A stretch of 64,000 bases of DNA from Lachnospiraceae bacterium AC2028 (GTDB lineage: Bacteria; Bacillota; Clostridia; Lachnospirales; Lachnospiraceae), in NCBI GenBank assembly GCA_000702685.1, contig JNJD01000008.1:1-64000 (forward strand). The letters run 5' to 3'. Positions 3,379 through 46,846 of the stretch are shown piece after piece. Each line of letters begins with the position of its first letter. Position 1 is the stretch's first letter. The notes under the pieces are model-generated. The model ran no database searches and was not told the origin of the DNA. It saw only the letters and a program-made list of their open reading frames with translations. A program made the translations under genes and the position numbers.

Positions 3379-3404
3379 TTAAACATTTCGAAAGGAGTAA
3401 ATTC

Positions 3405-3620: not shown

Positions 3621-3628
3621 GGTTTTGA

Positions 3629-4501: not shown

Positions 4502-4511
4502 GGAGGAACAG

Positions 4512-4931
4512 ATGGCAGCACCATCAGAAGTATTAAAGGATCCGAAGGATATAAAGCAGAAATTCATAGGAAGTTTTACCAAGAGACAGTTCATCTGTTT
4601 CTCCCTGGCTGCGATAGCAGGAGTTCCGTTTTATTTCATGACAAGAAAGACTCTCGGCACGGATGCGGCAGCACTGCTCATGATGGCGATAATGCTCCCG
4701 TTCTTTTTCTTTGCGATATACGAGAAGGAGGGAGTGCCTGCAGAAAAGCTTTTGTTCCAGATGGTAAATATGAACTTTATCCGTGCAGGCATAAGGGATT
4801 ATAAATCCACGACCAAATATGATGAGGAGAAGAGGATAGAAAAAATGAAGAAGGAGGTGGAAGCACTTGAAGCAAAAAGAGGTAAGTGGAAGGAAAGCGC
4901 AAAAAGCAGTTTTAAAAAGATCCATCATTGA
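4512..4931 (+). CDS. PrgI family protein
   Basis: 139 residues. It starts with a conserved cytoplasmic segment (VLKDPKDIKQKFIGSFTKRQ), then two close membrane helices (about 27-45 and 52-70), and a charged C-terminal coiled-coil region. This is the standard PrgI pattern, the VirB3-like partner of VirB4 in conjugative systems of Firmicutes. Its 3' end overlaps the VirB4 start by 65 bases, which points to coupled translation of the two partners. Confidence 0.88.
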   Translation: MAAPSEVLKDPKDIKQKFIGSFTKRQFICFSLAAIAGVPFYFMTRKTLGTDAAALLMMAIMLPFFFFAIYEKEGVPAEKLLFQMVNMNFIRAGIRDYKSTTKYDEEKRIEKMKKEVEALEAKRGKWKESAKSSFKKIHH

Positions 4932-7359: not shown

Positions 7360-9013
7360 GAGCAGATCGGATAAGGGATCCGGTCCCAGTAATAAAAAAC
7401 TGAACAGAGCACAGAAGAGGTATGAACGTGCCAGGAGGGATACTGAAAGAGCGCAGAACCGGGTTCCACATAATACAAGAATCGTTATTGAAAGACAATT
7501 TGATGAGGAAACAGGCAAAACTTCAAGGCGATTAACTACCACGCAGGTTTTAAAAAAACGCCGCAGACAGACTCCACTTCAAAAGGCTGTAAGAAAATCA
7601 TTTATGGAGGGCCGGTATTATGTCCATGGTAAGATCTCAGAAAATGAGCAGGATAATGCAGGTCTTGAAGCTGCCCATAAGGCGGAGGAGGCCGGTGAAG
7701 ATGTTTTAAGATTTGTAAGGGTAAACAGAAGAGACAGGACATCCCAGAGAAAACGGGAACTTGAAAAGGCTAGGTACCGTGAACGCCGTGCAGAGGGTGA
7801 ATACAGATACCGGAAATATCTGGATGATAATCCGGATGTCAGTGAAAAGATGGCCCGCAAAAAGATACAGAAGGAGCAGGTCAAAAAACATTATGCAAGA
7901 TTGTTCCGTAAAAGAGCCAAGGAGACAAAGCAGGCAGCAGAAACAACAACCAAAGCTACACAAAAGACAATAATCATAGCCAAAAAACTGGCGGAGATAG
8001 CAAGAGACCATGCCGTAGGGATAGGTGCATTAACAGGCGGAGGTCTCTTTTTTATGCTCATAACTTCGATGATATCAAGCTGCGGTGCGATGCTCGGGAG
8101 CGGTACCACGACCATAATGGCCGGAGCATATCAGAGCATGCCCACAGATATCGATGCTGCAGAGGATTCCATGAAGCTGAAGGAGATGTATCTGCAGAAT
8201 GATATCAATGATACCGAGACGGTTTATCCCGGATATGACGAATACGTATACAACATTGGACATATCGGACATGACCCGTTCACGCTTGTTAACTATCTTT
8301 CCGCAGTATACGGCATTTTCACTTCCTGGGATGTTGAAACAGATGTCCAGACTCTTTTTGATGAGATGTATACCCTGACATTTACCCCGTCGGAAGAAAC
8401 AAGGACAAGAACGGTTACGACCGTAACACCGGGTGATATGCCGGGTGAAGACATCGTTACAAGCGAAGAAGAGGAATATACCGTATCGATCATGACAGTT
8501 ACTCTTACAGTAAAGCCTCTGGAGGATATCGTTAATGAAAAACTGGCCGGAAATGATGAGGCGCAGGCTCTTTATCAGACATACGGAGTGACCCGCGGGG
8601 CGCTGCAGAGATTCTGGTCGCCCCTAAATCTCGACTGGGAAAGCAGAATCTCCTGCTATTACGGTTACAGGGTTCATCCGATATCCGGAGAAAACCAGTT
8701 CCACAGAGGACTTGATATCGCAGTCCCTGAAGGGACGGAACTGATGGCGGCAATGGACGGAACCGTAATGTATGCCCGGTATGATGACAGCTATGGCAAT
8801 TACATTGTCATCACGGATGAGAACGGATACAGCGTACGGTATGCCCATATGAGTAGCTTGTCTGTAAGTGAAGGACAGACTGTAACACATGGAGACCTGG
8901 TCGGATACAGCGGCAATACCGGAGGAAGTACAGGACCGCATCTGCATCTCGAATGTACATATGGGGCAGATTACTATAATCCGATCTTTTACTTTATGAA
9001 TGGCAGCGGATGA
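7352..9013 (+). CDS. M23 peptidoglycan hydrolase of the conjugation module
   Basis: 553 residues. Residues 1-215 are highly charged and likely cytoplasmic. A glycine-rich membrane helix lies at about 218-247, then an extracellular region, and a C-terminal LytM/M23 domain with the zinc ligands in FHRGLD (about 451-457) and HLHLE (about 530). It should open the cell wall for the mating channel, the VirB1-like task. Many Tn1549-type elements use a CHAP/NlpC protein here, so the M23 domain is a variation. It overlaps VirB4 by 8 bases. Confidence 0.88.
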   Translation: MSESRSDKGSGPSNKKLNRAQKRYERARRDTERAQNRVPHNTRIVIERQFDEETGKTSRRLTTTQVLKKRRRQTPLQKAVRKSFMEGRYYVHGKISENEQDNAGLEAAHKAEEAGEDVLRFVRVNRRDRTSQRKRELEKARYRERRAEGEYRYRKYLDDNPDVSEKMARKKIQKEQVKKHYARLFRKRAKETKQAAETTTKATQKTIIIAKKLAEIARDHAVGIGALTGGGLFFMLITSMISSCGAMLGSGTTTIMAGAYQSMPTDIDAAEDSMKLKEMYLQNDINDTETVYPGYDEYVYNIGHIGHDPFTLVNYLSAVYGIFTSWDVETDVQTLFDEMYTLTFTPSEETRTRTVTTVTPGDMPGEDIVTSEEEEYTVSIMTVTLTVKPLEDIVNEKLAGNDEAQALYQTYGVTRGALQRFWSPLNLDWESRISCYYGYRVHPISGENQFHRGLDIAVPEGTELMAAMDGTVMYARYDDSYGNYIVITDENGYSVRYAHMSSLSVSEGQTVTHGDLVGYSGNTGGSTGPHLHLECTYGADYYNPIFYFMNGSG

Positions 9014-17501: not shown

Positions 17502-18584
17502 ATGATCAATATTTTTCGTAGAAAGAAAATTGAATATATAGACTGTGAGTTTTGCCCCCACTGTGATGCAAATCTGACATTGCAGAAAGGCTACAGTAAC
17601 TTGCTTCCCAACTGGATTTGCAGAGGCTGTGGACAGATGCTTATTAATCCTAATCTGGAGACAGAATCAAACATCACCTGGATCTGTGATAAGTGTGAAA
17701 CTACCCTTAATATTCAGCCCGGATTCAACGAGTCATGTGGAAAGTGGAAGTGTACTGAATGTGGATTCGTTAATAAAGTCTCTCCTGAAGAGATATATGT
17801 TTCAGAAGATGAATATCAGGCAGATATCCATAATCCGTACAAAGGGCTTTGTGATGAGGATGCACTTGAACTATCTCTTTTCAAAGATGAGGGATCCATT
17901 GCCGGACGAGACGACATAATTTTGGTGAAGAATACTGAAAATGCCCATTATTACGTCAAAAAGCTTCTGAAAACATATGATCGGAGCATTTATGATTACC
18001 TCTTGGATCATCCGATTGATAATATGCCCAAAATTTGCAGAGTATATGAAAGCAATAACTGCCTTATAGTAATTGAAGAGTATATAGAGGGCGTGACTCT
18101 GTCCGACTTGCTAGAAAAGGATGGCTCTATAACTCCCCTGAGCATACAAGAAGCCCTTCGTATAGCTGAATGTATCTGTGGAATACTTAAGTGTCTTCAT
18201 AGCCTTTCTACGCCTATTATTCATCGCGATATCAAGCCTTCGAATGTTATGCTCACATCGAATGGCGATGTATTCCTTCTCGATATGAACGTGGCTAAAT
18301 GGTATGATCCGGAAAAGAATGATGATACCAGATATATGGGAACACAGTATTATGCTGCTCCGGAACAAGTAGGTTACGGGTTATCGGCTTCATCTGCTAA
18401 ATCCGATATTTATGCCCTTGGTATGCTCATGAATGTTATGCTTACCGGAAAGTTTCCGAAGGAAGAGAAGGCCACCGGGAAAGTATGGGACATTATAGAA
18501 AAGTGTATCAGTTTAGATGCCAATATGCGTTATGCCACAAGTGAACTTAAATCTACCTTGGAAGAGTTGAGATTACATATATAA
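17502..18584 (+). CDS. Zinc-ribbon Ser/Thr protein kinase
   Basis: 360 residues. The N-terminal 95 residues hold two zinc ribbons (CPHC...CRGC and CDKC...CTEC). The kinase domain follows, with Lys near 152, HRDIKPSN (catalytic Asp243) and LLDMN: the usual DFG is DMN, with Asp261 kept. GTQYYAAPEQ is the APE motif and KSDIYALGM the motif after it. No glycine-rich loop is obvious. No membrane segment or PASTA repeats, so it is cytoplasmic, unlike PrkC. The ribosome site is weak. It probably signals to or from the neighbouring motor operon. Confidence 0.85.
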   Translation: MINIFRRKKIEYIDCEFCPHCDANLTLQKGYSNLLPNWICRGCGQMLINPNLETESNITWICDKCETTLNIQPGFNESCGKWKCTECGFVNKVSPEEIYVSEDEYQADIHNPYKGLCDEDALELSLFKDEGSIAGRDDIILVKNTENAHYYVKKLLKTYDRSIYDYLLDHPIDNMPKICRVYESNNCLIVIEEYIEGVTLSDLLEKDGSITPLSIQEALRIAECICGILKCLHSLSTPIIHRDIKPSNVMLTSNGDVFLLDMNVAKWYDPEKNDDTRYMGTQYYAAPEQVGYGLSASSAKSDIYALGMLMNVMLTGKFPKEEKATGKVWDIIEKCISLDANMRYATSELKSTLEELRLHI

Positions 18585-22019: not shown

Positions 22020-22053
22020 TACAGTCACACTTTATGTGTGGCTGTATTTTTTT
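22020..22053 (+). terminator. Terminator after the XRE gene
   Basis: TACAGTCACAC/GTGTGGCTGTA stem (one wobble pair), loop TTTAT, then seven T. Confidence 0.85.
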
Positions 22054-22134
22054 GTTCTTTTTTAAGATGGACATTATCTGTCTATCTCGAAGCGTAGCAT
22101 GAAAATACAAGATGAAATCATCGGAAAGGATATT

Positions 22135-22533
22135 ATGAGCGAATCAAATATCAATGAGGAATTTGAGTGGCTGACTATAGATATCTGCCGTGAATATAGA
22201 AGACGTGCGGATAATCTTCCATCAAATAATGGACAGGATACCGGGGAAAGAAGAAAGCTGAGGATTGAACTTCAGGAAAGATGTCATATATCTCCGTTAG
22301 AGGCGATAAATATTCTTAATGGAGTCCACTGTGATCTGTATGTACACAGATATGATATTTTGAGCGGAAAAATTGCTCCCCCGGAAGGTTTCGAAATTCA
22401 TGGAAATGAATTGAGAAGAATTGAAAAGAAAAAACATCCGGATAAGTTGATAGAGGAATACGAGGAACGCATTTCATATCTCGAAGAAAAAGCCAGAAAA
22501 GCCGATGATTTTGGTTTTGAGGAAAAAGATTAA
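22135..22533 (+). CDS. Unassigned charged protein, first gene of the ClpP/DnaA-like operon
   Basis: 132 residues, soluble. A helical N-terminal region with DICREYRRRADNLP, a middle region with CHISPLEAINILNGVH, and a C-terminal coiled coil (LIEEYEERISYLEEKARKA). No family recognised. The ATG at 22135 follows GGAAAGG closely; the ATG at 22099 has no ribosome site. It is separated by 22 bases from the next gene and appears to open a five-gene run that ends at 24214. Confidence 0.55.
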   Translation: MSESNINEEFEWLTIDICREYRRRADNLPSNNGQDTGERRKLRIELQERCHISPLEAINILNGVHCDLYVHRYDILSGKIAPPEGFEIHGNELRRIEKKKHPDKLIEEYEERISYLEEKARKADDFGFEEKD

Positions 22534-22555
22534 CTGTGTTAAATAAGGGGCAGTC

Positions 22556-22690
22556 ATGAGTGAAAGAGCGACGGTCTTTTTTAATGTTTTATGCGGCATG
22601 GGGGTATGGTTACTGTTTTTGAAATACATGGTAGTGCCTGGCATTGATCATATAGAGAAAAAAATCAGAAAGTTCAAGATGAGGAAATAA
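22556..22690 (+). CDS. Single-pass micro membrane protein
   Basis: 44 residues: one hydrophobic helix (about 7-28, VFFNVLCGMGVWLLFLKYMV) and a basic C-terminal end (KKIRKFKMRK) likely in the cytoplasm. AAGGGG lies five bases before the ATG and the stop is one base from the ClpP gene, so translation is probably coupled. It could be a toxin, an anchor or a protease adaptor; unknown. Confidence 0.5.
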   Translation: MSERATVFFNVLCGMGVWLLFLKYMVVPGIDHIEKKIRKFKMRK

Positions 22691-22691
22691 T

Positions 22692-23318
22692 ATGGTGTGT
22701 AAAACTGAAAATAATAAATGCGACTGGGATGGCGATTCCGTTGATGACAAACCTTCGAAGAGACCTATTTTTTCTTCGACAGAAGATAGGTTTTATTACC
22801 TATTCGGAGACGTTAATTCACGAAATTGTGCTGATATTGCCTATGACATAACGAAGATAAATATGGAGGATGATGCGAAGGATGAGCGGGAGAAAGATTA
22901 TAAGCGTAAGCCAATAAAGATATATTTTAATTCTTATGGTGGAAGCGTTTACGATATGTGGCTCCTCGTGGATACAATTATGGGATCTAAAACTCCTGTA
23001 TATACATATTGTACGGGATATGCAATGAGTGCTGCTTTTATTATCTTTCTTTCCGGTCATAAAAGATATATGAGTCCTCATGCAACACTTATGTACCATC
23101 AGATTTATTGTTGGAGGCATGGAAAATATCAGGATCTCGTAGATGACAGGGAACAGACCGATCACTTAAATGAAATGATCGAGAATTTTGTTGTCGAACG
23201 CACAGGCCTATCCAGGAAGGATCTTTTAAATATCCGTGAAAAGAAAAAAGATACGTATTTTTCAGCTGAGGATGCAAAGGACAAGAAGATTATAGATGAA
23301 ATCATATATAAAAACTGA
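22692..23318 (+). CDS. ClpP-like serine protease
   Basis: 208 residues. The ClpP fold is clear: IYFNSYGGSVYDMWLLVDTI (oxyanion region with GGS), GYAMSAA with nucleophile Ser113, and LMYHQ with His136. Where ClpP has its third catalytic residue (ERDTERDRFLSA in E. coli) this protein reads IREKKKDTYFSA, so Asp appears to be Glu. No Clp ATPase gene is nearby; it may borrow host ClpX/ClpA or act alone. It carries a 35-residue N-terminal extension. It overlaps the following DnaA-domain gene by 23 bases. Confidence 0.88.
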   Translation: MVCKTENNKCDWDGDSVDDKPSKRPIFSSTEDRFYYLFGDVNSRNCADIAYDITKINMEDDAKDEREKDYKRKPIKIYFNSYGGSVYDMWLLVDTIMGSKTPVYTYCTGYAMSAAFIIFLSGHKRYMSPHATLMYHQIYCWRHGKYQDLVDDREQTDHLNEMIENFVVERTGLSRKDLLNIREKKKDTYFSAEDAKDKKIIDEIIYKN

Positions 23319-23682
23319 CAAGGAGAATAGAATAGAAGGTTCACCAAGGGGGAAAAAGTCGTTCAAACAGGATAAATCAAATATTTCATTTGAACGTATT
23401 TTAGATGTGATTTGTAAAGAATGTTATGTGAGCAAAGAGAAAATTCTTTCAAACAATCGAAATGCTTATACCGAGTATCCGCGACATATAATTATGTATC
23501 TTGCCCATACATTACTATATCTTTCGCATGAAGAAATTGCCACGAAGTTATATGGAAAAAATAAAACGGGTGTGAAATCTGGAATCAATAGGATTATTAA
23601 TGATATTAGAAATGATACTCAGAATGGAAAAAATACTAGAGAATTAATTGATAGAATTACTAGCATTCTATCGGAAAGGTAG
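23296..23682 (+). CDS. DnaA domain IV-like DNA-binding protein
   Basis: 128 residues. After a basic 30-residue start, ISFERILDVICKECYVSKEKIL, YPRHIIMYLAHTLLYLSHEEIATKLYG and NKTGVKSGINRI align with DnaA domain IV helices, including the Arg-x-Ile-x-Met-Tyr-Leu core. The DnaA-box signature GGRDHTTV is changed to GKNKTGV, so box recognition may be altered. No ATPase region is present. Its start lies inside the ClpP gene with a weak ribosome site, and the next DnaA-like gene begins seven bases after its stop. Confidence 0.78.
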   Translation: MKSYIKTDKENRIEGSPRGKKSFKQDKSNISFERILDVICKECYVSKEKILSNNRNAYTEYPRHIIMYLAHTLLYLSHEEIATKLYGKNKTGVKSGINRIINDIRNDTQNGKNTRELIDRITSILSER

Positions 23683-23689
23683 TGAGTAT

Positions 23690-24214
23690 ATGAATGAAAT
23701 GGATAATATAACAGAAAATTTCTGGAATAATATTCTTGAAAAAGTAAAAGAAGATACTTGTATATCACATATAACCTACAGCTTATGTCTAGAGGATCTT
23801 AGGATTAGCGAAATAAAAGGAAACGAGATTCTAATTATGACATCAAAAAATGATGAAGGTATTCTGGCATATCTTGAAGAGCATTTTAAGTCAGCTTTTG
23901 AAAACGCGCTTTCAGAATATTTCAATGGATCGGTATATGTTAGGTTTGTAAATGAATCAGGGAAGAATATAACTTCGCTTTGCTTTCTTGATAGATATGA
24001 GTTCCTTATGAAGTATGTTGAAGAGAATGACCATAAAATCGATCCCGGAGTTTTAACGTTTATTGCACACTATGTAGAGGGTAATGAATATTTATTGAAG
24101 AAAGAAGTAAAAAAGGTAGTGGATGTTTCAAAAGTATACGAATCTATTGATTTGCTTCATCCGTCGTCGCAAGAAGAATGGTTTACGTTAGGTTTGGTGT
24201 TGCGAGTAATATAG
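23690..24214 (+). CDS. DnaA domain I plus lid, without the AAA+ core
   Basis: 174 residues. Residues about 8-90 (FWNNILEKVKEDTCISHITYS, AYLEEHFKSAFENALSEYF, VYVRFV) fit DnaA domain I. Residues about 104-150 (YEFLMKYVEENDHKIDPGV, LTFIAHYVEGNEYLLKKEV) fit the lid of DnaA domain III, normally ENxxIPxxVLxFIAxxIxxNxRELEGAL, with the sensor-2 Arg lost (NEYLL for NVREL). Walker A and B are absent. With the previous gene it forms a deconstructed DnaA and may bind DnaA partners or DnaA itself. Confidence 0.75.
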   Translation: MNEMDNITENFWNNILEKVKEDTCISHITYSLCLEDLRISEIKGNEILIMTSKNDEGILAYLEEHFKSAFENALSEYFNGSVYVRFVNESGKNITSLCFLDRYEFLMKYVEENDHKIDPGVLTFIAHYVEGNEYLLKKEVKKVVDVSKVYESIDLLHPSSQEEWFTLGLVLRVI

Positions 24215-24225
24215 GATGAATCAAA

Positions 24226-24254
24226 TTGACGGAAAACGGTTTCCGAAGTATAAT
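24226..24254 (+). promoter_or_regulatory. Promoter with palindromic operator for the WYL gene
   Basis: TTGACG (24226-24231), 17-base spacer, TATAAT (24249-24254). The spacer holds a perfect inverted repeat CGGAAA-ACGG-TTTCCG (24230-24245) between the two hexamers, a position typical for a repressor or MerR-like control. The WYL regulator gene starts 67 bases downstream, so self-regulation is likely. Confidence 0.7.
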
Positions 24255-24320
24255 ATTATTGTTTCGTGACATATTCTGTCTATGTGGTTTGGTATACTTT
24301 TGACCATGGGGGAAGATAGT

Positions 24321-25274
24321 ATGAGCGAAGAATTAAAAGAAAAACAGATCAGCAGGGTTCTGCAGATTTATTCAAAATTATCAGATGGTTATATCGTGAA
24401 CAAGGCGGAAGAAGCTGCCAGGTTCGATGTTGCCGAAAGAAGCATTCAGCGAGATATTGATCACATCCGTGCATTCTTGGACGAAGAGTCCGAGCGTACA
24501 GGTGTGATCAATTCTGTTATATATGACCGTTCTGCCGGCGGGTATAGGTTAGAAACATTATATAAGATGCGTCTTCAGAACAGCGAAGTTCTTGCATTAT
24601 GTAAGATTCTCCTTGATAGCAGAGCTTTCACCAAAGAAGAAATGGTGGAGATGCTTGATAAACTTATTGCATGTTGCGTTCCTAAGAGTAATCAGAAGAT
24701 TGTTCAGGAACTTATTCAGAATGAAGAGTTTCATTATGTTGAGCCTAGGCATAAAACTTTTTTCGTAGACAAACTTTGGAATGTTGGACAGGCAATAAGA
24801 AATAGTCAGTATATTGAAATAAAGTACCAGGGAATTCAGGGAAGCACGGTTAAAACTCGAAAGCTTATGCCGGTCTCTATTATGTTTTCTGAGTATTATT
24901 TTTATATGGCGGCATTTTTGGAAGACAAGGAAGTAAAGAAAAATTTCCGTGTTCTCGAAGATGCATCGCCTACTATATACCGCATGGATAGAATTCAATC
25001 TCTTAAGGTTTTGGATGAACGATTTAAGATTCCGTATAAGGATCGATTTGAGGAGGGTGAATTCCGTAAAAGAATCCAGTTTATGTACGGAGGAAAACTT
25101 CGGAAGGTAACATTCAAGTATTCTGGATATTCTGTGGAAGCAGTACTTGATCGCCTGCCAACAGCAAAGATACTTTCTGAAGAAGAGGGAGAATATACGA
25201 TCTCTGCTGAAGTGTTCGGTGATGGTATTGATATGTGGCTTAGGAGTCAGGGAGACAAAGTAAAGATTATTTGA
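24321..25274 (+). CDS. HTH-WYL transcriptional regulator
   Basis: 317 residues. The N-terminal winged HTH (FDVAERSIQRDIDHIRAFL) is of the DeoR/HTH_11 type. The middle WYL domain carries IEIKYQG, KLMPVSIMFSEYYFYMAAF and FRVLEDASPTIYRMDRI, and a WCX-like C-terminal domain follows. WYL regulators often control phage-defence genes and sense nucleic acids or nucleotides. The ATG at 24321 follows GGGGGAAG; earlier ATGs at 24282 and 24306 are less likely. The next gene starts 24 bases on, so it probably controls the two large unknown genes. Confidence 0.87.
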   Translation: MSEELKEKQISRVLQIYSKLSDGYIVNKAEEAARFDVAERSIQRDIDHIRAFLDEESERTGVINSVIYDRSAGGYRLETLYKMRLQNSEVLALCKILLDSRAFTKEEMVEMLDKLIACCVPKSNQKIVQELIQNEEFHYVEPRHKTFFVDKLWNVGQAIRNSQYIEIKYQGIQGSTVKTRKLMPVSIMFSEYYFYMAAFLEDKEVKKNFRVLEDASPTIYRMDRIQSLKVLDERFKIPYKDRFEEGEFRKRIQFMYGGKLRKVTFKYSGYSVEAVLDRLPTAKILSEEEGEYTISAEVFGDGIDMWLRSQGDKVKII

Positions 25275-25298
25275 TTACATTGTATGGAGGAGTTGCAT

Positions 25299-26795
25299 AT
25301 GATGAAAAACATAGAACTCAAAAATCCTGAAATAGATGCTGATGGATTAATAGTACAATATAGTGTTTCTGTGCCTAAAGAAGATCAAAGTGAAGATAAA
25401 ATAATTCAAGAATTCTATGCAGATTATAGAAGTACGTTAGATGAGCTTGAAAGACTTACCAATAATGCTGATGGGTTAGACTATGCTTTGGCCGCTTCTT
25501 CTGGTCTTATAGCAGGAATAATCGATATTTTTTTTGTTGGCGAATTGGGTTTGTTTAAAAATGCAAGCGATGAAGCAAAAGATAGATTCAGATCCGATAA
25601 AGGTGAAATAAACGAAAAAGTAAATAGATATATAGAAAAATATGCAAAAAGAAAGGGATACAAAGGGGAAGGACTTAAAGGAGCAATAGATTTTTTGGAA
25701 AAAAAGTATCCTGTAGCACAGGATAATGTATGGAGTGGAAAGCATATATCATCTGCGAATACTCATCATTTAGATGATTTGGCTCATCATCCGACTTTGT
25801 TAGGATTATTGTCGGCGATTGTTGTACAGTATTTTAGACTAGCTGTCTTCTCAAATAAACAGGGGAGCGATGTTGTTGTATTTGTAGAAATAGATAAAAA
25901 GGAATTTATTAGGAATCTTATTCCTATAGTCATTTCAGGTGTTTTAAAATGGCTGACTTACATGGTCGAGCAGAAAGAGAAAAATGAGTTGGATGAGGAA
26001 TTACCAAAGCCAATTCATATTTTGGTAGAAAAACTATATCTTACTCCTGCGGCAATTTCGATATTGAAAACAGTGGATAATTGGTATGGGCATTTGGTGA
26101 GTGATATGGGGGGGAGTAAGAACACACCAGGAGGAGGTACGGGGATTCCGGGCATGTTCTTATCTCTTATGAAAGAGATATCTATGCTTCCAGGTTTAAA
26201 TAATTCAAATCTTCCTCAGTTGCTGAATGATTTGTACCAAGGAACTGCGGCATCACCTTTGACAGATAAACTTGACTTGAGAGCGGAACTGACGGTTGTT
26301 AAAGAACAGCAGCTGCCTGTTATTGTAAATGAAATATTAGTTCGTTCATCATATTTTATAAGTCATCTTGTGAAAGAGTTACAAGACAATGATTTGCAAA
26401 ATGTAAACTGGAAGAATGTAGTTCCGTTTTACAATAGAACCACAGTGAGAATGATGACTGTTTCTACTGTTACCATGGAAGTTGTCGATGCTGCAGATGC
26501 AGCTATTCGGGCAGCGGCTAAATCAGGAGGATTTGTACCGGGCTTTGCTGCTCAATTTGTGGTTAGGATAAACTTTGTTGGATTAGGAAGATGCGCTTTA
26601 GCTTGTACAACGGATGCTGCTATGGGATTGAAAAAAACATCATTGGAATATGCTGTAGCATCAGCTGAGGTGGGAATAGCATCGGATGTTACTATGAAGG
26701 CATTGGACGATATTCAATTATCAAAGCAGAAAACTCAAAAGAAACTGGATGAATTAAATGCTCAAACCAGTGAGTTATCGGGGTTTAAGTTTTAA
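25299..26795 (+). CDS. Unassigned membrane-associated protein of WYL-linked pair
   Basis: 498 residues. A glycine/alanine-rich hydrophobic hairpin lies at about 65-85 (YALAASSGLIAGIIDIFFVGE), a second hydrophobic block with HHLDDLAHHPTLLGLLSAIV at about 155-180, a third near 205-225, and long Ala/Gly-rich helices near the C-terminus. The HH...HH pattern could bind metal. GGAGGA lies seven bases before the ATG. I cannot place it in a family. Position behind a WYL regulator and in front of a TerB/PH-like protein suggests an effector acting at the membrane. Confidence 0.55.
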   Translation: MMKNIELKNPEIDADGLIVQYSVSVPKEDQSEDKIIQEFYADYRSTLDELERLTNNADGLDYALAASSGLIAGIIDIFFVGELGLFKNASDEAKDRFRSDKGEINEKVNRYIEKYAKRKGYKGEGLKGAIDFLEKKYPVAQDNVWSGKHISSANTHHLDDLAHHPTLLGLLSAIVVQYFRLAVFSNKQGSDVVVFVEIDKKEFIRNLIPIVISGVLKWLTYMVEQKEKNELDEELPKPIHILVEKLYLTPAAISILKTVDNWYGHLVSDMGGSKNTPGGGTGIPGMFLSLMKEISMLPGLNNSNLPQLLNDLYQGTAASPLTDKLDLRAELTVVKEQQLPVIVNEILVRSSYFISHLVKELQDNDLQNVNWKNVVPFYNRTTVRMMTVSTVTMEVVDAADAAIRAAAKSGGFVPGFAAQFVVRINFVGLGRCALACTTDAAMGLKKTSLEYAVASAEVGIASDVTMKALDDIQLSKQKTQKKLDELNAQTSELSGFKF

Positions 26796-26820
26796 ATCTT
26801 TTTGTTGAGAGGTAATCGAT

Positions 26821-28677
26821 ATGAATAAAAATCTTAATGAAATCGTTATTGATAAGGAAAATTTTACAGTCGATGATGCTAGGGCGGCTTTGGAACAGAT
26901 TTTTTCTTCCCAAGTCGATGATTTTAATTCTATCAAGAATGAAAAATGGTATAAAAAACTATTAAATGCCGTCACATTTGGTGCTGGTAGGAAAAAACTG
27001 GTAATAAAAGATATTCGCTCATTAAGTAAACTTCAAGCAATCCTTGCGTTGATATGTACGAAAGGCTTTCAAGATACAGATGCTCATATCGAAAAAATCA
27101 TAGAGAATCTTTCGAAAACTAATGAAGCTGTAAAAAAGATATATCTGAGTAGCGTTGTAGGTATTAAACCCCAAGAAGATATCAAGAAAATGTCTGAAAC
27201 CGACAAACTCATTCTTCTTTTGACTTTGGAGCAATATAAATCAATCAACGGAAAAGAGGAAGATTTTAAGGAATATATAACGTATGTGGCTAGAACAATG
27301 GGCATATCACTTCCTGAAACAGAATTTAATTGCGAATTATTAAGTAAAGTAAATTCTGTTGAGGTTGTTTTTAGATGCTTGGTTGAATTGCAGATGATAG
27401 ATGGCACAGAGGCGATGCCTGAATTGATATCTGAAGCTGTAGATAATCTTAATATTTCAACGAAAGCAAAGAAAAAAATATATGATACAGTATCAAGAGA
27501 AATTGATACATTTAAGCCGGACTATCTTATCAAGAAATACTCAAACTCATATGGTGAAATAGATGCTGCTGATCTGCTGGATGATGAGTCGAACGATATC
27601 GTTATTGAAGAAGAATGTGATTCGGATGATTTAAAATGCTCTAATGATTCAAAAGCAGTTTCCTTATCTGAAATTGCCGATGTTATTGAAAAAGAATATA
27701 ACTGGACAAAACATGGAAATGCTCGAAATCCGGTTTACCAGATCGAAATTCTGAAAAATCAGGATATTAACACCATTATCGATAATAATGAAATAAATAA
27801 TACTGTTATCAGCGATAGTATTAAAAAATCATTGAACAAGGAAGGTGGATTTGCTTATTTGTATCGATTGCAAAATGGAGATATGTATGATGAACATTTT
27901 GACGGCAATCCAGTGTTTATGGCTTTGACAGTGGATGGGGTATATATTTGCGTTGCAGAACAAACGGCTTATATAGATTATAATTCTTTAAAGGATGTTA
28001 AACAAAAACTTATAACTGAAATTGAATATGGGATAAAAGAATATTATTCATCTTTGATAATAAATGCGGATAAAATCGTTTGGTATTCGAATGACGGAAA
28101 TATAGTTGATGGTGATGATAATGTAGAATTAGATAGAATAGATAGATTCTTTGAGAATCCATCATCTATCAGAGATATTGAGCGTTTTAATATAAGATAT
28201 CTTCGTAGATTCTTTGAGAAAATATTATTTGTATTAAATGGAAATAATAGAAATACAAATGATTTGGTTGAAGAAATTGTTGATAGATATTTGAAGAAAA
28301 TTGCTGGAACGTATAATTCATACGTGATTAAATCCATAAATGACTATAAGGATAAAAATAGAAAAAATAATGCCATGTCTAAATATCCGGGGCTAAGAGA
28401 TGAGGATGTAATAGCTTTTATAGATACCACTGTCTTTAAAACGGGAAAAGAAGGTATTCTTTTTGGATATGAAGGTATAGGATTTGATTATGCTTTTAAA
28501 CGTGTATTTGTTAAGTATAGTGAAATTACAGAAGTGGATTGCCTTGCACATGTAACGGTAAGAGGATTTTTTGATAATACATATCTTAGTTACATTGAAG
28601 GTCACTATGAAATAATTGAGCCGATCAATAAATTGGCACTCACGGATTGCCTTGAGGAGATATTGTGTATTATATAG
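26821..28677 (+). CDS. Large protein with TerB-like helices and a PH-like C-terminus
   Basis: 618 residues. The helical N-terminal half includes two blocks (LILLLTLEQYKSINGKEEDF and VVFRCLVELQMIDGTEAM) in the style of TerB. A very acidic linker is at about 245-275. The last 95 residues (DVIAFIDTTVFKTGKEGILFG, FVKYSEITEVDC, YIEGHYEII) look like a bacterial PH-like domain. No enzyme motif found. It follows the previous gene by 25 bases and has GAGAGG before the ATG. It may sense membrane state for its partner; inference only. Confidence 0.5.
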   Translation: MNKNLNEIVIDKENFTVDDARAALEQIFSSQVDDFNSIKNEKWYKKLLNAVTFGAGRKKLVIKDIRSLSKLQAILALICTKGFQDTDAHIEKIIENLSKTNEAVKKIYLSSVVGIKPQEDIKKMSETDKLILLLTLEQYKSINGKEEDFKEYITYVARTMGISLPETEFNCELLSKVNSVEVVFRCLVELQMIDGTEAMPELISEAVDNLNISTKAKKKIYDTVSREIDTFKPDYLIKKYSNSYGEIDAADLLDDESNDIVIEEECDSDDLKCSNDSKAVSLSEIADVIEKEYNWTKHGNARNPVYQIEILKNQDINTIIDNNEINNTVISDSIKKSLNKEGGFAYLYRLQNGDMYDEHFDGNPVFMALTVDGVYICVAEQTAYIDYNSLKDVKQKLITEIEYGIKEYYSSLIINADKIVWYSNDGNIVDGDDNVELDRIDRFFENPSSIRDIERFNIRYLRRFFEKILFVLNGNNRNTNDLVEEIVDRYLKKIAGTYNSYVIKSINDYKDKNRKNNAMSKYPGLRDEDVIAFIDTTVFKTGKEGILFGYEGIGFDYAFKRVFVKYSEITEVDCLAHVTVRGFFDNTYLSYIEGHYEIIEPINKLALTDCLEEILCII

Positions 28678-33714: not shown

Positions 33715-35463
33715 ATGGCATACGAAACTCCGCTAACTATTTCTGATGTTATTTCTAATATTTCGTCAAATTCATATGTACTCCCTTCTATACAAAGAGA
33801 GTTTGTGTGGGGCGTTGATCAAATTGAATGCTTGTTTGATAGCCTTATGCAGGGATATCCGATAGGCGGATTCCTATTTTGGGAGCTGTCTAGTAGTCAA
33901 TATAAAAAATATGAATTCTATAGTTTTCTCCAGCACTATCATGAGAAAACATCTACTCATAATCCACGAATCACTTTATCTAAAAACCAGAGTATTATGG
34001 CTGTTTTAGATGGACAACAACGTTTAACATCCCTATTTATAGGTTTGTGCGGAACCTATGCATACAAATTGCCATATAAGAAAAAAAAGAGTGATAGTTC
34101 ATTTCCTAAAAGAGAACTATATCTGAATATTATTGAACCGTTGGATGGAGTTGATAACAAATATGACTTTAATTTTTTGACCGATGAAGAAATAGTAAAC
34201 GATAAAAAACACTATTGGTTTAAAGTAGGAGATGTTCTGGGTTTTGAAAGAGAATCTTCAGTATTTCAGTTTATAACGAAGAATATTCACAGGGGCGAGT
34301 TTGATTATTCAGATAAGCAAGAAGATTTTGCTATGGATACTCTGTCGCGGCTTTATTATGCTGTCTGCGTTAACCCTACAATTAGCTATTATAGAATCAA
34401 ATCCGATGAACTTGATAAGGTTCTGAATATTTTTATACGTGTTAATAGCGGAGGAACAATACTAAGTTATTCGGATCTCCTCTTATCAATAGCTACTGCT
34501 CAATGGGAGGATGTAAACGCTAGAGAAGAAATTAATGAAATTGTTGATGAAGTCAATTCTATTGGCGGTGGATTTAACATTAATAAAGATTTTGTTTTGA
34601 AAACTGCATTGGTGCTTGCTGACATCAAAGATATAGCATTCAAGGTGGATAATTTTAAGAAATCAAACATGCAAAAAATAGAGCGGGAATGGGAAACTAT
34701 AAAAAGTGCTATTTATCAGTCTTATGTTCTTGTGTCGAGTTTCGGCTTTTCCAGAGAAAATCTTAGATCCAATAATGCCATAATTCCTATAGCATATTAC
34801 TTAAAGATGTTAGGACTTCCTAAGAATTTTGAAAGTTCTAAGGCATATGTCTCGAATAGAAAAATAATAAAGAAATGGCTGATCATGGCTCTGCTAAAAC
34901 AAACATTCAGTGGACAGCCTGATAATGTTTTAAGGCCGATAAGGACTATACTCCAAAATAATGGGAATAATGATTTTCCTATCGATGAGATAATTGAAAA
35001 ATTAAGGGGAACTAGAAAGTCTATGCTGTTTACAGAAGATGATTTTGATCATCTGCTCGATCTTCAGTATGGCAAAGCAGAGACGTACACGGCATTGATG
35101 ATGATATATCCGTCTTTGGATTTCAATAATAAGTTTCATATGGATCATATATATCCGAAGAGTAAATTTAAGAAAAGAATACTTATAAAGAAGCGCGTGA
35201 AGGAACAGGATGTTTCATGGTATTTAGATCATGTAAATGATATCAGCAACTTACAGCTGATTGAGGCAATGCCTAACATTCAGAAGCAAAATACTGATTT
35301 CAAAAAGTGGTATGACGAAGAGTATCCGACAGAGAAAGATAAAATACAGTATAGAAAGATAAACTATATTCCTGATATGGAATATGATTATTCTGATTTC
35401 AAAGAGTTCATTGAAAAAAGACGTACATTACTAAAAAAAGCATTCGAAAAAGTGTTATCGTAA
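33715..35463 (+). CDS. DUF262/HNH protein, GmrSD-like nuclease
   Basis: 582 residues. The N-terminal DUF262 domain shows LPSIQREFVWG (about 23-33) and DGQQRLTS (about 99-106); FIRVNSGGTILSYSDLLLS lies after it. The C-terminal DUF1524-type HNH region has MDHIYPKSKF (about 476-485) and DISNLQLIEAMPNIQKQ. GmrSD-type proteins are nucleotide-driven type IV restriction enzymes that cut modified phage DNA. The two halves are fused in one chain. CTGGAGGA precedes the ATG. It is directly behind a WYL regulator. Confidence 0.87.
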   Translation: MAYETPLTISDVISNISSNSYVLPSIQREFVWGVDQIECLFDSLMQGYPIGGFLFWELSSSQYKKYEFYSFLQHYHEKTSTHNPRITLSKNQSIMAVLDGQQRLTSLFIGLCGTYAYKLPYKKKKSDSSFPKRELYLNIIEPLDGVDNKYDFNFLTDEEIVNDKKHYWFKVGDVLGFERESSVFQFITKNIHRGEFDYSDKQEDFAMDTLSRLYYAVCVNPTISYYRIKSDELDKVLNIFIRVNSGGTILSYSDLLLSIATAQWEDVNAREEINEIVDEVNSIGGGFNINKDFVLKTALVLADIKDIAFKVDNFKKSNMQKIEREWETIKSAIYQSYVLVSSFGFSRENLRSNNAIIPIAYYLKMLGLPKNFESSKAYVSNRKIIKKWLIMALLKQTFSGQPDNVLRPIRTILQNNGNNDFPIDEIIEKLRGTRKSMLFTEDDFDHLLDLQYGKAETYTALMMIYPSLDFNNKFHMDHIYPKSKFKKRILIKKRVKEQDVSWYLDHVNDISNLQLIEAMPNIQKQNTDFKKWYDEEYPTEKDKIQYRKINYIPDMEYDYSDFKEFIEKRRTLLKKAFEKVLS

Positions 35464-35575
35464 GAAAATTATATTTAAAATGAACTGTTTGAGTGGTTTC
35501 ACTAATCATAAAAGAGGTTTATCAATGTCGATGCAGATGTCAGTGATAGGCTGATCGTTTAGATGGATAAGTACA

Positions 35576-38500
35576 ATGAAGAATATCAATGAATTAATCG
35601 GATTGATAAATGGAATCAATTTTGATGGCGTAATCAATCAGAAGGAAACTGATAGATTACAATCCTGGGTCGACAGAAGCAGAAATCTTGCTTATGAGGC
35701 AAAAGAAATCGAACTCATAAGCTTGATTGATACTATTCTTGAAGATCATGTTATTACTGACCAGGAAAGACAGCTGCTTGTTGATTATTGTAATAAGTAT
35801 AATGGGGATTCTATCGCCAACTCTGAAATATATCTCTTACAGGGCATCCTGGAGGGGGTTGTTTCTGATGGTGTAATAAACAATCTTGAAGTTCAGCGTC
35901 TCCAGGAGTGGATGGCAAAGTACGGAGAGGTACTGGATAAGTATCCCAAGTGCCAGTCTATGGCGAACAAAATAAGGGAAATTATAGAGGATGGTGTTGT
36001 CACTGATGACGAGAAGCAAGTCCTCTTGGATATTATCGATAATCAGATAGAGGACGTTCAATTCGAATCTAAGCTTGCATTCCTGATAAGTCAGGTTAAA
36101 GAGCAGAAAAATATCGGAATGGACCTTATCGATTTACTTGGGGACGATAGAGCGATTTCCAAGATTCATGAGCTGGCCGAAGGCGAGTTAGATAAGGGAT
36201 TAAGGTCGTATTATGGCTCAGTGACCTGCAATCGGGAGCTTATTTTCATATCATTGACGATCATCGCTATGCTCCACTATGAGGAGGGACGCTATTATGA
36301 AAGTGTCCGCGATACATATGAAGTCCTATATGATGATTATTCGGCCCAGAAGATCGAAGGTTTTATCAGAAGTCTTCTTTCCAAATATAGAGTTGACTCT
36401 AATGAGCGCCAGGTAAATGTGGCATTACGAAATGCCATTGTCCCGGGGTATTATCTTGCAGCATTCTTTGATTTCATATATGACATTTACAAATTGAATT
36501 TCCAGTTTGATCTTCCCGATGACATGTACGAGGACTTCAAGTTCGTATATGAAGGCCTGCGTCAGACCATGCTTTCCGAGGGCGACGATGTACAGGTTAA
36601 TGTTACGAAAAAGACGTATAAGCTGATCAAGACGACTAAGCAGCTTATTGCAGATGAAGATTTTGTGGACTCGGTTATTAAACTGAGCATCATAATCGTG
36701 CGTCTGATCGACAAGAAGATATGGAATAAAGAGATAAAGGTTTACAATCCATATCTTAAGCAGGGATTCGATAGATGGGCAGACAAGCTTAACGTATCTA
36801 CACGTGATCTAGAAGGCCATAAAGAAACATCGGCGTTTAGGTCCCGCTGGGAACCGAAGTATGTCTTGCTTGATAACAATGTTTATATTGTACCGCCCGT
36901 TCATAGGATTAAGTCTATGTATGACTATAGCACCATAAGAATAGAGGTGGAAAACCAGGGAGAAGTTTTGTATTCGAATACCAGACCCGATATAAGGGAA
37001 ATTATGGGTGGATATGAAATAAATCTGGATAAAATACGGATCAGCAATCCGCTTGGTGAGGTGACCTATAGGCTATATGCCGGGGATGAGGTTATTTATG
37101 ATAGTAAGGATAATCTTTATCGGAATGTTATAGCATTTTCTTATAAAGATAATTCTGAAATCAAGAACAATACAGACTTTAACGGCACAGCCATTTTCTG
37201 TTATAAGGGCGAAAGCAACAAACTCGAGCCCTACCATAAGACTTCGGACTATCTTCTTGCTCAGTATGGGGCACACTTGGGCGATAGCGTTTTAATAGGG
37301 GATGAGATATTCAATTTCTCATCTTTAGTTAGACCTGGTATTTTTGGAGAAGAGATTGTCGATCATTATTTGTATGATTCCGAAAAAAATCAAAAGTATG
37401 GTGTTTTTAAGGAAGCAAAGTACCTTGTCTTTGAAACAACTAACCTTGACGCCGGAATAGAAGTAAATATAGATGGGAAGGCATATAAAGCAAAGGATCT
37501 CGAAGGCGAAGTTAATAGCCGTGAGGGTGTAGTTAAGTATATTATTCATATCCCCAAGCTCGAAAGCGGCTTCCATTGTATTGCTATATATGAATTAATG
37601 CCGGGCAGAAGAACTGAGCTGACTTCTTTTGAGTTTGCAATTGATACCGCTCTGCAGGTAGAGGTTAGGGATAATGGCGAAAATACGTATGTTGTATCAG
37701 TAGGAAGCAATATTCTTAACGATGTTGTTACGCAGACGATAAGCGCTGATTCATTCGATCTGGAATGGCTTTCCGTGGAAGCTGATGGCAGGAGACTTTC
37801 ATATCAAGTGCCGTTACCAATTACATATTATTCCTTGGATGGAGAATCATGGAAATCAGCGGTAGATTCGTTGTGGATAGGTGACATATCGTCAGAAACC
37901 TCTATAAGGGTGAACAATAAAAACGTAACAGAACTGCAGGTATATGGTTCGAGCGGAAGTCCAATCGAGGAACCGATCCGAATGTCGGAGAAGGCTTTGT
38001 ATAGAGAAGCCAAAATCGGATTTTTGAAATCATATGCCGAGAGCAATGCATATTTCTTGCTTGTCATGATGGGCAAATCAGCCAAAGAAGCTGTGTTCAT
38101 TTGCTATAACAAGTGCCAGATATCCGATAATACAAAACTTGAATACGACGCAGAAAACAAGTGTCTGGATGTAGAAACCAGGTATCTTGGAAAAGGCAAG
38201 ATTTATTTCACTCTGACGGATGACGCCGGAGAACAATTATACAAGAGCAACATCGTTGAGAACGGTGAAGTAGTTAGTATTGGAGGTCTTAAATCCTTCA
38301 TGCCGTATCACGTTGCTTTCTTTGAGAAAAAGAGTGGTCTATCACTTACCGGAGATAGGCAGCTTGATACATTCGATAAGGTGATATATGACTGGTCTGA
38401 TTTGGTGGGTAAATCTTTTAAGATTACCGAAGTTTATTATGACCAGCCTGTGCAGGGGAGATTACTTCGAAAGAATCATTATTTCAACAAGACCTCATTG

Positions 38501-38773
38501 TGTATAACGAAACAAATTGATGAGGGTAAATACGAAGGAGAGCTTTACACAAACACCAGTAAGGGTAGTTTTTACCTTTTCAAGATAAACCCGGTTGAAG
38601 TTGAGCTATGCGGCGACGCAGTAGATGGAACTGTGGAATTATCAATCACTAAGGATGGAGATGGTTTGTTTCTTGATTTTGAACATCATGCGATTATGAA
38701 TACGATTGATGATTTGAATGCCGTAGATATTTTTTCTTACATTATGGATCTGAAAGGAATTGAGTTCATATGA
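35576..38773 (+). CDS. Large unassigned partner of the DruE-like helicase
   Basis: 1065 residues, soluble. The first 165 residues contain three related units: LIDTILEDHVITDQERQLL, LQGILEGVVSDGVINNLEVQ and IREIIEDGVVTDDEKQVLL, in the style of TerB helical pairs. A helical middle (170-400) is followed by about 650 residues of beta-rich sequence with Ig-like character. No enzyme motif seen. The stop overlaps the helicase start (ATGA). In type III Druantia a large unknown protein (DruH) precedes DruE, and this may be a counterpart, though similarity could not be tested. The ribosome site is weak. Confidence 0.6.
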   Translation: MKNINELIGLINGINFDGVINQKETDRLQSWVDRSRNLAYEAKEIELISLIDTILEDHVITDQERQLLVDYCNKYNGDSIANSEIYLLQGILEGVVSDGVINNLEVQRLQEWMAKYGEVLDKYPKCQSMANKIREIIEDGVVTDDEKQVLLDIIDNQIEDVQFESKLAFLISQVKEQKNIGMDLIDLLGDDRAISKIHELAEGELDKGLRSYYGSVTCNRELIFISLTIIAMLHYEEGRYYESVRDTYEVLYDDYSAQKIEGFIRSLLSKYRVDSNERQVNVALRNAIVPGYYLAAFFDFIYDIYKLNFQFDLPDDMYEDFKFVYEGLRQTMLSEGDDVQVNVTKKTYKLIKTTKQLIADEDFVDSVIKLSIIIVRLIDKKIWNKEIKVYNPYLKQGFDRWADKLNVSTRDLEGHKETSAFRSRWEPKYVLLDNNVYIVPPVHRIKSMYDYSTIRIEVENQGEVLYSNTRPDIREIMGGYEINLDKIRISNPLGEVTYRLYAGDEVIYDSKDNLYRNVIAFSYKDNSEIKNNTDFNGTAIFCYKGESNKLEPYHKTSDYLLAQYGAHLGDSVLIGDEIFNFSSLVRPGIFGEEIVDHYLYDSEKNQKYGVFKEAKYLVFETTNLDAGIEVNIDGKAYKAKDLEGEVNSREGVVKYIIHIPKLESGFHCIAIYELMPGRRTELTSFEFAIDTALQVEVRDNGENTYVVSVGSNILNDVVTQTISADSFDLEWLSVEADGRRLSYQVPLPITYYSLDGESWKSAVDSLWIGDISSETSIRVNNKNVTELQVYGSSGSPIEEPIRMSEKALYREAKIGFLKSYAESNAYFLLVMMGKSAKEAVFICYNKCQISDNTKLEYDAENKCLDVETRYLGKGKIYFTLTDDAGEQLYKSNIVENGEVVSIGGLKSFMPYHVAFFEKKSGLSLTGDRQLDTFDKVIYDWSDLVGKSFKITEVYYDQPVQGRLLRKNHYFNKTSLCITKQIDEGKYEGELYTNTSKGSFYLFKINPVEVELCGDAVDGTVELSITKDGDGLFLDFEHHAIMNTIDDLNAVDIFSYIMDLKGIEFI

Positions 38774-41700
38774 GCAGATTAAACTCTATTGAAAAATCCA
38801 AGTATATCAATAGCAGGTATAAGGAATATTTGCGCTCATCATTTCATTTTGGAGAAGATACACTTCAAAAACTCTTTGAGAAGCAACTCGAGAGCGAGGG
38901 CCTATTTAAGGGACCATACGTTGATTTGAACTTGCCATTCAGACGCGGCAGAAACATTCGGCAGTTAGTTGATGCCGAAATAGTATGTAAGTCGTTTCTT
39001 AAGCTGGGCGATATAAATTTTGATCGTCCGTTGTATTCTCATCAGGAAGAGTCTATTCAGCAGATTGCCGCCGGCAGGAGTGCAATTATTACAACTGGTA
39101 CGGGTTCTGGTAAAACGGAGAGTTTCCTGTTCCCGATCTTAAATGAATTATTAAAGGATTTGGAGAATGGAAATCATGAAGTAGGAATTCGAGCAATATT
39201 CCTTTATCCCATGAATGCCCTGGTTAATGACCAGATAGATAGAGTACGTGCTATTTTGTCTAACTTCCCGGATATAACGTATGGCTTCTTTACAGGTGAA
39301 ACAAAAGAAGCCGTATCAGATAAGCAAAGACAGAAATATGGAGAAGAGAACGGAGTTGTTATCCCGCCGAATGAACTTCTTTCGAGAAAGGAAATTCGTG
39401 ATAACCCGCCGCATCTGCTTTTTACCAACTATTCCATGTTGGAGTATTTGCTTATAAGGCCTAATGACTATTCAATATTTGAAGCAGAAAGGCTTAACAA
39501 TTGGAAGTTCGTAGTACTTGATGAGGCACACTCGTATTATGGCTCGCTTGGTATCGAGCTTTCTCTTCTCATGAGAAGACTTACCGGGCTTGCCAAGAAA
39601 AAGCCTCGTTTTATCTTAACCAGTGCGACTCTTGGTGAGAAGGGTAAATCAGAAAATGAAATTGTGGACTTCGCAAGGAGTCTTACTTCGGTAGATGATT
39701 TCGATGTTAAGGATATCATCTTCTCTAAACGAATACCCTTGGATGCTGCTAAGTTGGAGTACACTGTCGACGGAGCAGATTATACTGCATTAAATGCGGC
39801 GGGGGATGATTCTTCAAAGGTTAAGCAGATAGCGTCGAAATATGTATCTCTGTCAGATGGCGATGCAAGATCATATTTATATGAACTTCTTATTCGTGAC
39901 AGAAATGTATATGAGTTGTATAGCCAGTTAACTAAGGGAAGTCGAGCTTTCTCAAATATCTATAGCGAATATACATCTGGAATTAAGGAAGAGGAATTAA
40001 TAGCGCTTATCGATTTAATCAATATGTCGGAAAAGAATGGTATCGGAATCTTTGATCTGAAGTACCATTCTTTCGTGCGTCCTATTTCCGGCGCATATAT
40101 CACTCTTGGACAGAGTGGTAAGTTGACGCTCACAAAAACCAATGTCATTGATGGAATGAAGGCGTTTGAAGTTGGAAACTGCAGATATTGTAGCGCGCCT
40201 TATATTATTGGAAAAATACAGATTAATACAGAAGATGGCCTTGAGTATTTGTATCAGAACAAGGAAATAGATATTTACGAGAACTATGGAAATAATGAGT
40301 TCGTTAAGCTTGATTATTTCTTGCTTGAAAATGCTATAAGCGAGGATGTTGATCCTGAAACGATCGAAGAATACACAGTATGTGCAAAGTGCGGTTGCAT
40401 TCATCCTGCAAAGAATTTAAATGCTCGGAGATGTAATTGTGGAGACACATTTAAAACAACTATCTACAGAGTAAACCAGACAAAGGCAAATGAAGAAGAG
40501 GATGTTTTCAATAATATCAATCTTTGCCCTAGCTGTGGACATAAAACAAGATCGGGTGCCGTAAAGGGACTTAACCTTGGTAAAGATGAAGGCACAGCAC
40601 TTATAGCTCAGATTTTATACGAGGCTATTGATGAAGGCGAGGAAGCTGCAAAGCAGACCGGTGGTCTGTCGTTAAAGATGAAGCCTCGGGATACTGCATA
40701 TACCCCGACATCTAAAACAAAGCAATTTCTGGCATTCTCCGATAGTAGACAGCAGGCAAGTTTCTTTGCAACATTCTATGAATCTAACCATGTCCGCATG
40801 TTGAGAAAGCGCCTTATTTGGAAAGTCCTCGAAGAGCATGGCTTTAAGGATATTACTGTCGATGAACTTGCCGCCTATATGACGGAAAAGATAAAGAAGC
40901 AGGATTTATTCCATAATGAAATGTCTGCGCATAAGAACGCGTGGGCAGCAGTTATGGTTGATCTGTTAAGAGTAGATGGTGTGTACGATGGTGAAGGCCT
41001 CGGACTTTATCATTTTGATATAGACCTTTCAAGTATTATGGATTCGTTCTCTGAAGAGGATATTGCTGAAGAATTTGGAGAGTACAACATAACTAAGAAA
41101 GATCTGGAGAACGTTATGCAGGTCGTTCTTGGCGTATTTAAAGTTACTCCTGCAATCAACTATACAAAGTCGACTCTTACACCGGAAGAGAAGGCAGAAC
41201 ATTTGGAATATAGACGGTTTGACAACTTCGTTGCATTACAGAATCCGAAGACCACACCGTCCATAAGAAGCTTTCTGCCGGTAAGCGGCAAAGAGAATAT
41301 GGTCGTTCGCTATATTGAACGGACCTTTGGATGCGATGCAGAAAAAGCAAAAGACATACTTACGATCATCTTTTCGAATCTGTTGGTGGGACAGTCACAG
41401 ATGCCGGGTGTAGAGCCGATCGTAATAAAGGAACCGACCAAGGATGCGTATCAGATTGATGTTAGCAGATATGTAGTAAGAAACTATAAGTCTACGCAGT
41501 ATTACAGATGTAATAAATGTGGGTCTCTTACTCCATATAATGTTCACGATGTTTGTGTTCAGGATAGATGTAAAGGAACGCTTGAACCTGTTGATCCGGA
41601 TGAGGCATTAAAGAATAACTTCTACCGTTCGGAATATAAAACAAAGAAGATTGAGAGCATTGTTGTTGAAGAACATACCGCACAGCTTGATCGAAAGAAA

Positions 41701-43875: not shown

Positions 43876-43878
43876 AAT

Positions 43879-46837: not shown

Positions 46838-46846
46838 GGAGATAAA

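Follow-up and report, generated by a model that had tools for sequence, protein, structure and literature searches.

Introduction

Domain I of the initiator DnaA is a contact site for several proteins. Trp6 is described as critical for dimerisation of domain I in E. coli, where the opposite face binds DnaB and DiaA (PMC5448010). In B. subtilis, DnaD is reported to depend on residues T26, W27 and F49 of domain I for a contact that SirA prevents (PMC10201431); the face carrying the second Trp is bound by DiaA in E. coli and by DnaD in B. subtilis (PMC5448010, PMC10201431). Prophage genes yfdQRST are reported to inhibit initiation when overexpressed, and the product YfdR binds domain I (PMC4776307). 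As described, SirA and YfdR affect initiation via domain I, or are believed to do so (PMC10201431, PMC4776307). In E. coli DnaA, R399, P423, D433, H434, T435 and H439 are given as base-specific residues (PMC7561715).

Here we describe two adjoining genes of Lachnospiraceae bacterium AC2028, the products of which, P0001 and P0002, are made of DnaA parts without the AAA+ core, a conclusion that is well supported. Domain IV of P0001 and domain I and the probable lid of P0002 derive from DnaA of the lineage of the host's genus. Unlike DnaA, the pair lacks the AAA+ base and domain II, and is altered in the DnaA-box reading residues and at the sensor-2 Arg. The order of the parts, spread over two genes, is reversed, as the earlier note had seen, with domain IV encoded first and domain I plus lid second. 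SirA and YfdR, as their descriptions have it, are unrelated binders of domain I, whereas P0002 is itself a domain I. DnaA N-terminal-domain genes are also described as cargo of RAGE, an integrative and conjugative element (ICE) of Orientia, in 10-23 copies per genome and with function unknown (PMC10732058). RAGE and P0002 are alike in placing a DnaA N-terminal domain on an ICE, a likeness drawn from their descriptions; the available text of PMC10732058 mentions no split domain IV partner, and its host is of a different kind. No paper on split, core-less DnaA pairs was among the matches listed from the open-licence PMC literature.

The element and the operon

The window, that is, the whole 64-kb stretch analysed, starts at base 1 of its contig and comes from a genome of 2.77 Mb in 14 contigs. 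It carries an ICE, or the portion of one that lies on this contig (Table 1), in which cargo genes fill the space between the T4SS-type genes and the relaxase and integrase genes. A protein-kinase-like gene (Pkinase; 17502-18584) has mad6 and PD-T4-6 as its top PADLOC models, and defence-like cargo at 33715-53506 includes genes for a HEC-05/GmrSD-type protein (E=3.6e-224), a NERD-helicase protein, DNA methylases and a LlaJI-type restriction enzyme.

Table 1. Features of the 64-kb window (positions are those of the window)
Feature	Position	Strand	Basis or remark
T4SS coupling protein, TrbL-like, TraG-like and M23 peptidase genes	1330-9013		ICE
Terminator-like stem	22020-22046		lead only
Gene for 144-aa protein, function unassigned	22099-22533	+	3' of the terminator-like stem
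ClpP-like protease gene	22692-23318	+	CLP_protease E=3.5e-26; phrog_94 E=1.6e-40
P0001 gene, stand-alone DnaA domain IV, 128 aa	23296-23682	+	Bac_DnaA_C E=4.8e-15
R55 of P0001, equivalent of E. coli DnaA R399, kept	23458-23460	+	alignment position
N89-K90-T91-G92 of P0001, replacing D433-H434-T435-T436 (DnaA-box reading stretch)	23560-23571	+	alignment
P0002 gene, domain I plus lid-like segment, 174 aa from ATG	23690-24214	+
Domain I part of P0002, residues 1-92	23690-23965	+	subclade DnaA profile 61.9 bits; 4tps match
C33 of P0002, replacing the second conserved (loader-face) Trp of domain I	23786-23788	+	conserved-column check
Lid-like segment of P0002, residues 99-153	23984-24148	+	alignment to AAA+ base end and lid; support modest
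Y134 of P0002, at the sensor-2 Arg position	24089-24091	+	alignment
Promoter-like site, 11/12 match	24226-24254	+	lead only
Relaxase gene	55362-56744	-	ICE
Tn916-type integrase gene	59590-60819		ICE

The span 22692-24214 holds three overlapping or closely spaced genes, encoding the ClpP-like protease, P0001 and P0002. The earlier note had taken this span as DnaA in pieces; both DnaA-derived genes do lie inside it, but its first part is the ClpP-like gene, which is not related to DnaA. The P0001 gene overlaps the ClpP-like gene by 23 bases, and a gap of 7 bases separates it from the ATG of P0002, the mechanical ORF of which opens farther upstream, at a TTG at 23648. The ClpP-like gene apparently belongs to the same operon as the two genes that follow it, and all three products are probably encoded on one transcript. 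Judging by eye, all three residues of the ClpP triad (Ser, His, Asp) seem to be present in its product. Related ClpP genes at three other loci (L097-L099) adjoin coupling-protein-like ORFs, as read without profile search, and no DnaA-like ORF was found at E<=0.01 at the three loci with related ClpP genes.

The gene for the 144-aa protein is probably the first of the operon, and a 64% identical relative of its product was found in one of 30 other genomes of the genus. Between it and the ClpP-like gene lies a short ORF of 44 codons (22556-22690), part of which encodes a hydrophobic segment. The terminator-like stem and the promoter-like site together suggest that the unit is probably 22099-24214, with the DnaA pieces last. 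The promoter-like site is treated as a lead because such sites are as numerous in the region (19) as in shuffled sequence (mean 18.5); it may start the next unit, of WYL, BnzB-like and BnzA-like genes. By PADLOC models, positions 24282-28677 contain a WYL regulator gene and, after it, one BnzB-like gene (E=1.2e-40) and one BnzA-like gene (E=3.3e-8), and we take this stretch, directly 3' of the DnaA pieces, to be a possible Bunzi-type defence unit. The GC content of the P0001 and P0002 genes was 0.30 and 0.32, as compared to 0.39 for the window and 0.38 for host dnaA; that both genes are richer in AT speaks against the explanation favoured below.

P0001 is a DnaA domain IV with altered DNA-reading residues

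The first product had been aligned by the earlier note with DnaA domain IV, and this was confirmed. The Pfam profile Bac_DnaA_C scored P0001 at 55.8 bits (E=4.8e-15; cut-off 31.5). A model built with 24 viral relatives (mean pLDDT 86) gave a confident helix-turn-helix fold, with 3pvp and 1j1v, both DnaA domain IV on DnaA-box DNA, as top PDB matches (prob 1.00; TM by target 0.89-0.91). The identity of P0001 to DnaA was 45-50% within the host's genus subclade and 29-36% for the other matching members of the genus. Chromosomal DnaA of this subclade (L001, L033-L044) is itself unusually diverged, with a stem of 0.94 in the P0001 tree, and scored 77.8-80.6 bits with Bac_DnaA_C as compared to 98-114 bits among the best family rows listed.

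Conserved columns of domains I and IV were defined as those with the same residue in at least 90% of DnaA rows. P0001 kept six of 11 such columns of domain IV; two more show conservative changes, one from T to S and one from V to I, and the D, the H and the second T of DHTT are lost. The motif GKNKTGV, present as the earlier note had read it, stands where host DnaA has RSDHTTV, so that D433 and H434 are replaced by N and K. We compared this position with the domain IV proteins of viral contigs (29) and with DnaA (45 rows): His was found in all 73 aligned rows, the remaining one of the 74, a DnaA row, being gapped. In contrast to these residues, the equivalent of R399 is kept; its column is R in all 29 viral proteins, and of the 45 DnaA rows 40 have R and 5 have K.

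The window contains one exact DnaA box and 28 sites with at most one mismatch, with no cluster and no clear iterons. DnaA boxes as decoy sites were dismissed, there being only one exact box in 64 kb. A defence system was likewise dismissed as the identity of the pair: PADLOC models gave no match to P0001 at E<=0.01, and one weak match to P0002 (see below).

The confident helix-turn-helix of P0001 would also suit a transcription factor made from that of DnaA, with P0002 as its partner or anti-factor, acting on it or on DnaA-dependent promoters. Such a regulator pair would be in keeping with the other stand-alone domain IV proteins on viral contigs and with a basic P0001 (pI 9.6) beside an acidic P0002 (pI 4.7). 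The charge contrast says little, however, because the corresponding host domains IV and I are likewise basic and acidic (8.8 and 4.7), and no operator was found. We regard this explanation as rather unlikely.

Stand-alone domain IV proteins on viral contigs

We searched a viral collection with an alignment of P0001 and eight DnaA domain IVs, using two patterns, one of them across DHTT and open to N and K. ORFs of 141-313 aa that encode a stand-alone domain IV and have no Walker A were found at 29 loci on 28 viral contigs (L110-L138), 25 of the proteins being distinct; a full-length DnaA query of the same collection gave no relative. Among the 25, phrog_16091, a family with no assigned function, matched three and phrog_323 matched one (E<=1e-5). 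These Bac_DnaA_C-type proteins resemble P0001 in being a domain IV without motor, encoded by a small ORF in a mobile or viral genome, but the 24 that were aligned are only 20-28% identical to it, and all 29 keep the His of DHTT. A lid is added at one of the 29 loci, and their examined flanks contained no domain I ORF. As domain IV occurs without the motor at 29 viral loci, stand-alone domain IV is already known in mobile DNA; distinctive here are the pairing with a free domain I, the origin from the host's genus and the changed reading residues.

P0002 combines domain I with a lid-like segment

For the second product, the domain I-like start reported by the earlier note was upheld. Among 298 family genomes, the best match of P0002 was DnaA of the host itself (51.3 bits, E=1.7e-13; 35% over residues 5-90), the next scoring 33.3 bits. 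When 31 genomes of the genus were searched, DnaAs of four sister species slightly outscored host DnaA (51.7-53.1 vs 51.3 bits); subclade DnaAs scored 47.5-53.1 bits with P0002 and the remainder of the family at most 33.3. An AlphaFold model made without relatives had a mean pLDDT of 55, with blocks within residues 31-90 at about 62-81, and its top match was domain I of B. subtilis DnaA (4tps; prob 1.00, TM 0.79 by target). A profile of P0002 and eight DnaAs also matched B. subtilis domain I (E=1.2e-8), a match driven largely by the DnaA rows. P0002 alone retrieved no DnaA from PDB sequences at E<=10.

By the test that the earlier note had set for itself, its reading is not refuted: the Bac_DnaA_C match was highly significant and closer DnaA profiles scored P0002, while Pfam, including DnaA_N, had no match to P0002 at E<=1. 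A PADLOC restriction-enzyme match of P0002 (E=0.003) was weak and was taken as chance.

The lid-like segment is likely a diverged lid by sequence, and is the weakest part of the assignment. A broad DnaA profile of 43 rows scored it 13.1 bits, as compared to at most 3.5 in 2000 shuffles, but the subclade profile gave only 6.3 bits, a value exceeded by one shuffle (7.2); the first result is significant and the second borderline. Against 4611 ORFs, the lid profile matched P0002 at E=0.0023, one of four matches at E<=0.01, the remaining ones being two full DnaAs and one viral protein of lid plus domain IV. The sensor-2 Arg is replaced, as had been noticed, the aligned residue being Tyr (Table 1).

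Eight conserved columns of domain I were compared. Five are kept, including W12, and Ile is changed to Leu, Lys to His and the second Trp to Cys. I15 and L37 are kept together with W12, the dimer-face Trp. The comparison of the loader face may not carry over, since two of the three loader residues of B. subtilis already seem to differ in subclade DnaA.

An ICE may replicate once it has been excised, and the pair might be a split replication or transfer helper. P0001 would then occupy an origin-like site on the ICE and P0002 would recruit the helicase machinery, the two together replacing DnaA at the element without ATP-driven filaments. Domain I is described as a helicase-recruiting hub and domain IV as a DNA anchor (PMC5448010), and here both are retained in genes that adjoin. 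However, the loader-face Trp is gone from P0002, no joiner of the two chains is known, no iteron array was seen near the two genes, and the examined stretch of a related ICE (G298) is without both. We consider such a helper unlikely.

Could the two genes instead be a DnaA gene disrupted by frameshift or permutation? The DnaA AAA+ profile had no match at E<=0.01 in any window ORF of at least 50 aa, which bears out the earlier statement that the core is absent and rules out a frameshifted or permuted full DnaA. Chance resemblance was ruled out for domains I and IV by profile scores, genome searches and model matches; for the lid it is unlikely, though the two profiles disagree and support is modest.

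Search for relatives

No orthologue of P0001 or P0002 was found beyond their own genome in family, genus and order genomes, viral contigs, phages and plasmids. Stand-alone relatives of P0002 outside its own genome were absent from the 298 family genomes (84 with a match) and the 31 genus genomes (16 with a match); its matches in the family genomes were DnaA-sized ORFs, with the exception of three weak matches (317, 386 and 731 aa; E between 1.3e-4 and 2.3e-4). P0001 matched, besides itself, only DnaA-sized ORFs in the 31 genus genomes (23 with a match). In 344 order genomes, a profile gave two matches in the own genome only; misses in this search count for little, because any match was obtained in just 177 of the 344 and at most 14 candidates were scored per genome. 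Bac_DnaA_C matched 208 of 249 family genomes, with a second match in three: the own genome, G052 (a 564-aa ORF) and G177 (a piece of 38 aa, located where a contig starts). At the G052 locus (L108, G052:C41:110773-110976), in another genus of the family, this second DnaA-like ORF (564 aa) and the first lie 5 kb apart. On the basis of these family-, genus- and order-level searches, a taxon-wide family was rejected.

Sequence collections were scanned as well, the pattern-based scans among these detecting close relatives only. P0002 had no relative among viral contigs, phages, plasmids or genome contigs, and a query with P0001 alone yielded none from viral contigs, plasmids or genome contigs. Two weak matches of P0001 in phage records were full-length DnaA ORFs by profile. 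The related ICE, in another species of the genus, has T4SS genes and the 144-aa gene in common with this one; the 33 kb around its 144-aa relative contained no DnaA-like ORF (best E=0.31). As the pair occurs once, conserved pairing lends no support to joint function.

Origin and selection

We built one tree per domain, each of 44 rows, with an SH-aLRT support mark of 95. P0001 grouped with the DnaAs from the subclade of the host's genus at an SH-aLRT of 100. P0002 was placed beside the same subclade (SH-aLRT 89), a placement flagged as unsure owing to a long branch and membership in no well-supported set. The end branches measured 1.1 (P0001) and 1.68 (P0002) changes per column, as compared to at most 0.13 for subclade DnaAs. 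That the donor was a dnaA of the host's genus is supported, firmly for domain IV and less so for domain I.

We simulated neutral drift from host dnaA to the observed divergence, 1500 runs for each domain, and the frame remained open in 0.9% of the runs for domain IV and in 0.8% of those for domain I. The simulation used substitutions alone and charged the whole divergence to the captured copy, as the branch lengths roughly allow. Differences from host dnaA at codon positions 1, 2 and 3 were 0.37, 0.27 and 0.66 for P0001 and 0.54, 0.32 and 0.62 for P0002. The pattern is weaker in P0002, and against one sister DnaA its third-position difference fell below the first-position difference.

These data bear on whether the genes are captured dnaA pieces, functionless and heading for loss. 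Long branches, the missing core and key residues, occurrence in one genome and the weak codon-position pattern of P0002 would all agree with relics. On the other hand, the frames are open where about 99% of neutral runs break, P0001 shows the codon-position pattern, widely conserved columns are kept while functional ones change, and the genes form a tight operon with no stop. We therefore judge relics quite improbable.

Proposed role and significance

The residues kept and lost fit loss of DnaA's own job, the dimer-face Trp being retained while the loader-face Trp, the sensor-2 Arg and the DnaA-box residues are gone. This pattern suits both suggestions of the earlier note, decoys or an element regulator, and one of these roles may fairly be inferred for the pair.

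As a working explanation, with a probability of roughly 0.38, we favour P0002 as a domain-I blocking partner and P0001 as a re-aimed DNA-binding protein, a reading drawn from the residues and from the known binders of domain I. The ICE would have acquired dnaA from its own host genus, shed the AAA+ core and the linker and retained two products. P0002 would still pair with host DnaA via the Trp face of helix 1; without the loader-face Trp and the motor it would not pass on the helicase loader, hence a blocking partner, and it may damp host initiation during ICE activity. The lid is assigned no role in this model. P0001 would no longer read DnaA boxes as DnaA does; with the minor-groove Arg that it retains and its basic surface it would bind a different site, probably one specific to the element, and would serve as an element regulator. 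That the two make up a two-part anti-initiator, in which free domain I poisons host DnaA assemblies, joining them without being able to load helicase, beside a domain IV re-aimed at a new DNA site, so that replication is held back or the machinery is steered to the element, is possible but doubtful. In our judgement, the blocking partner with the re-aimed binder ranks first, followed by the regulator pair, the split helper and relics.

With no motor and with altered DNA-reading residues, the pair suggests that host-derived parts may serve the element in regulating replication or interfering with it. The domain I antagonists SirA and YfdR are other proteins; here the parts are pieces of the host lineage's own initiator, altered at working residues. 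If active, they would amount to a naturally occurring separation-of-function set for domains I and IV of DnaA and would illustrate a route from an initiator to inhibitors or to new DNA-binding specificities. The viral stand-alone domain IV proteins, on 28 contigs, point to a wider class.
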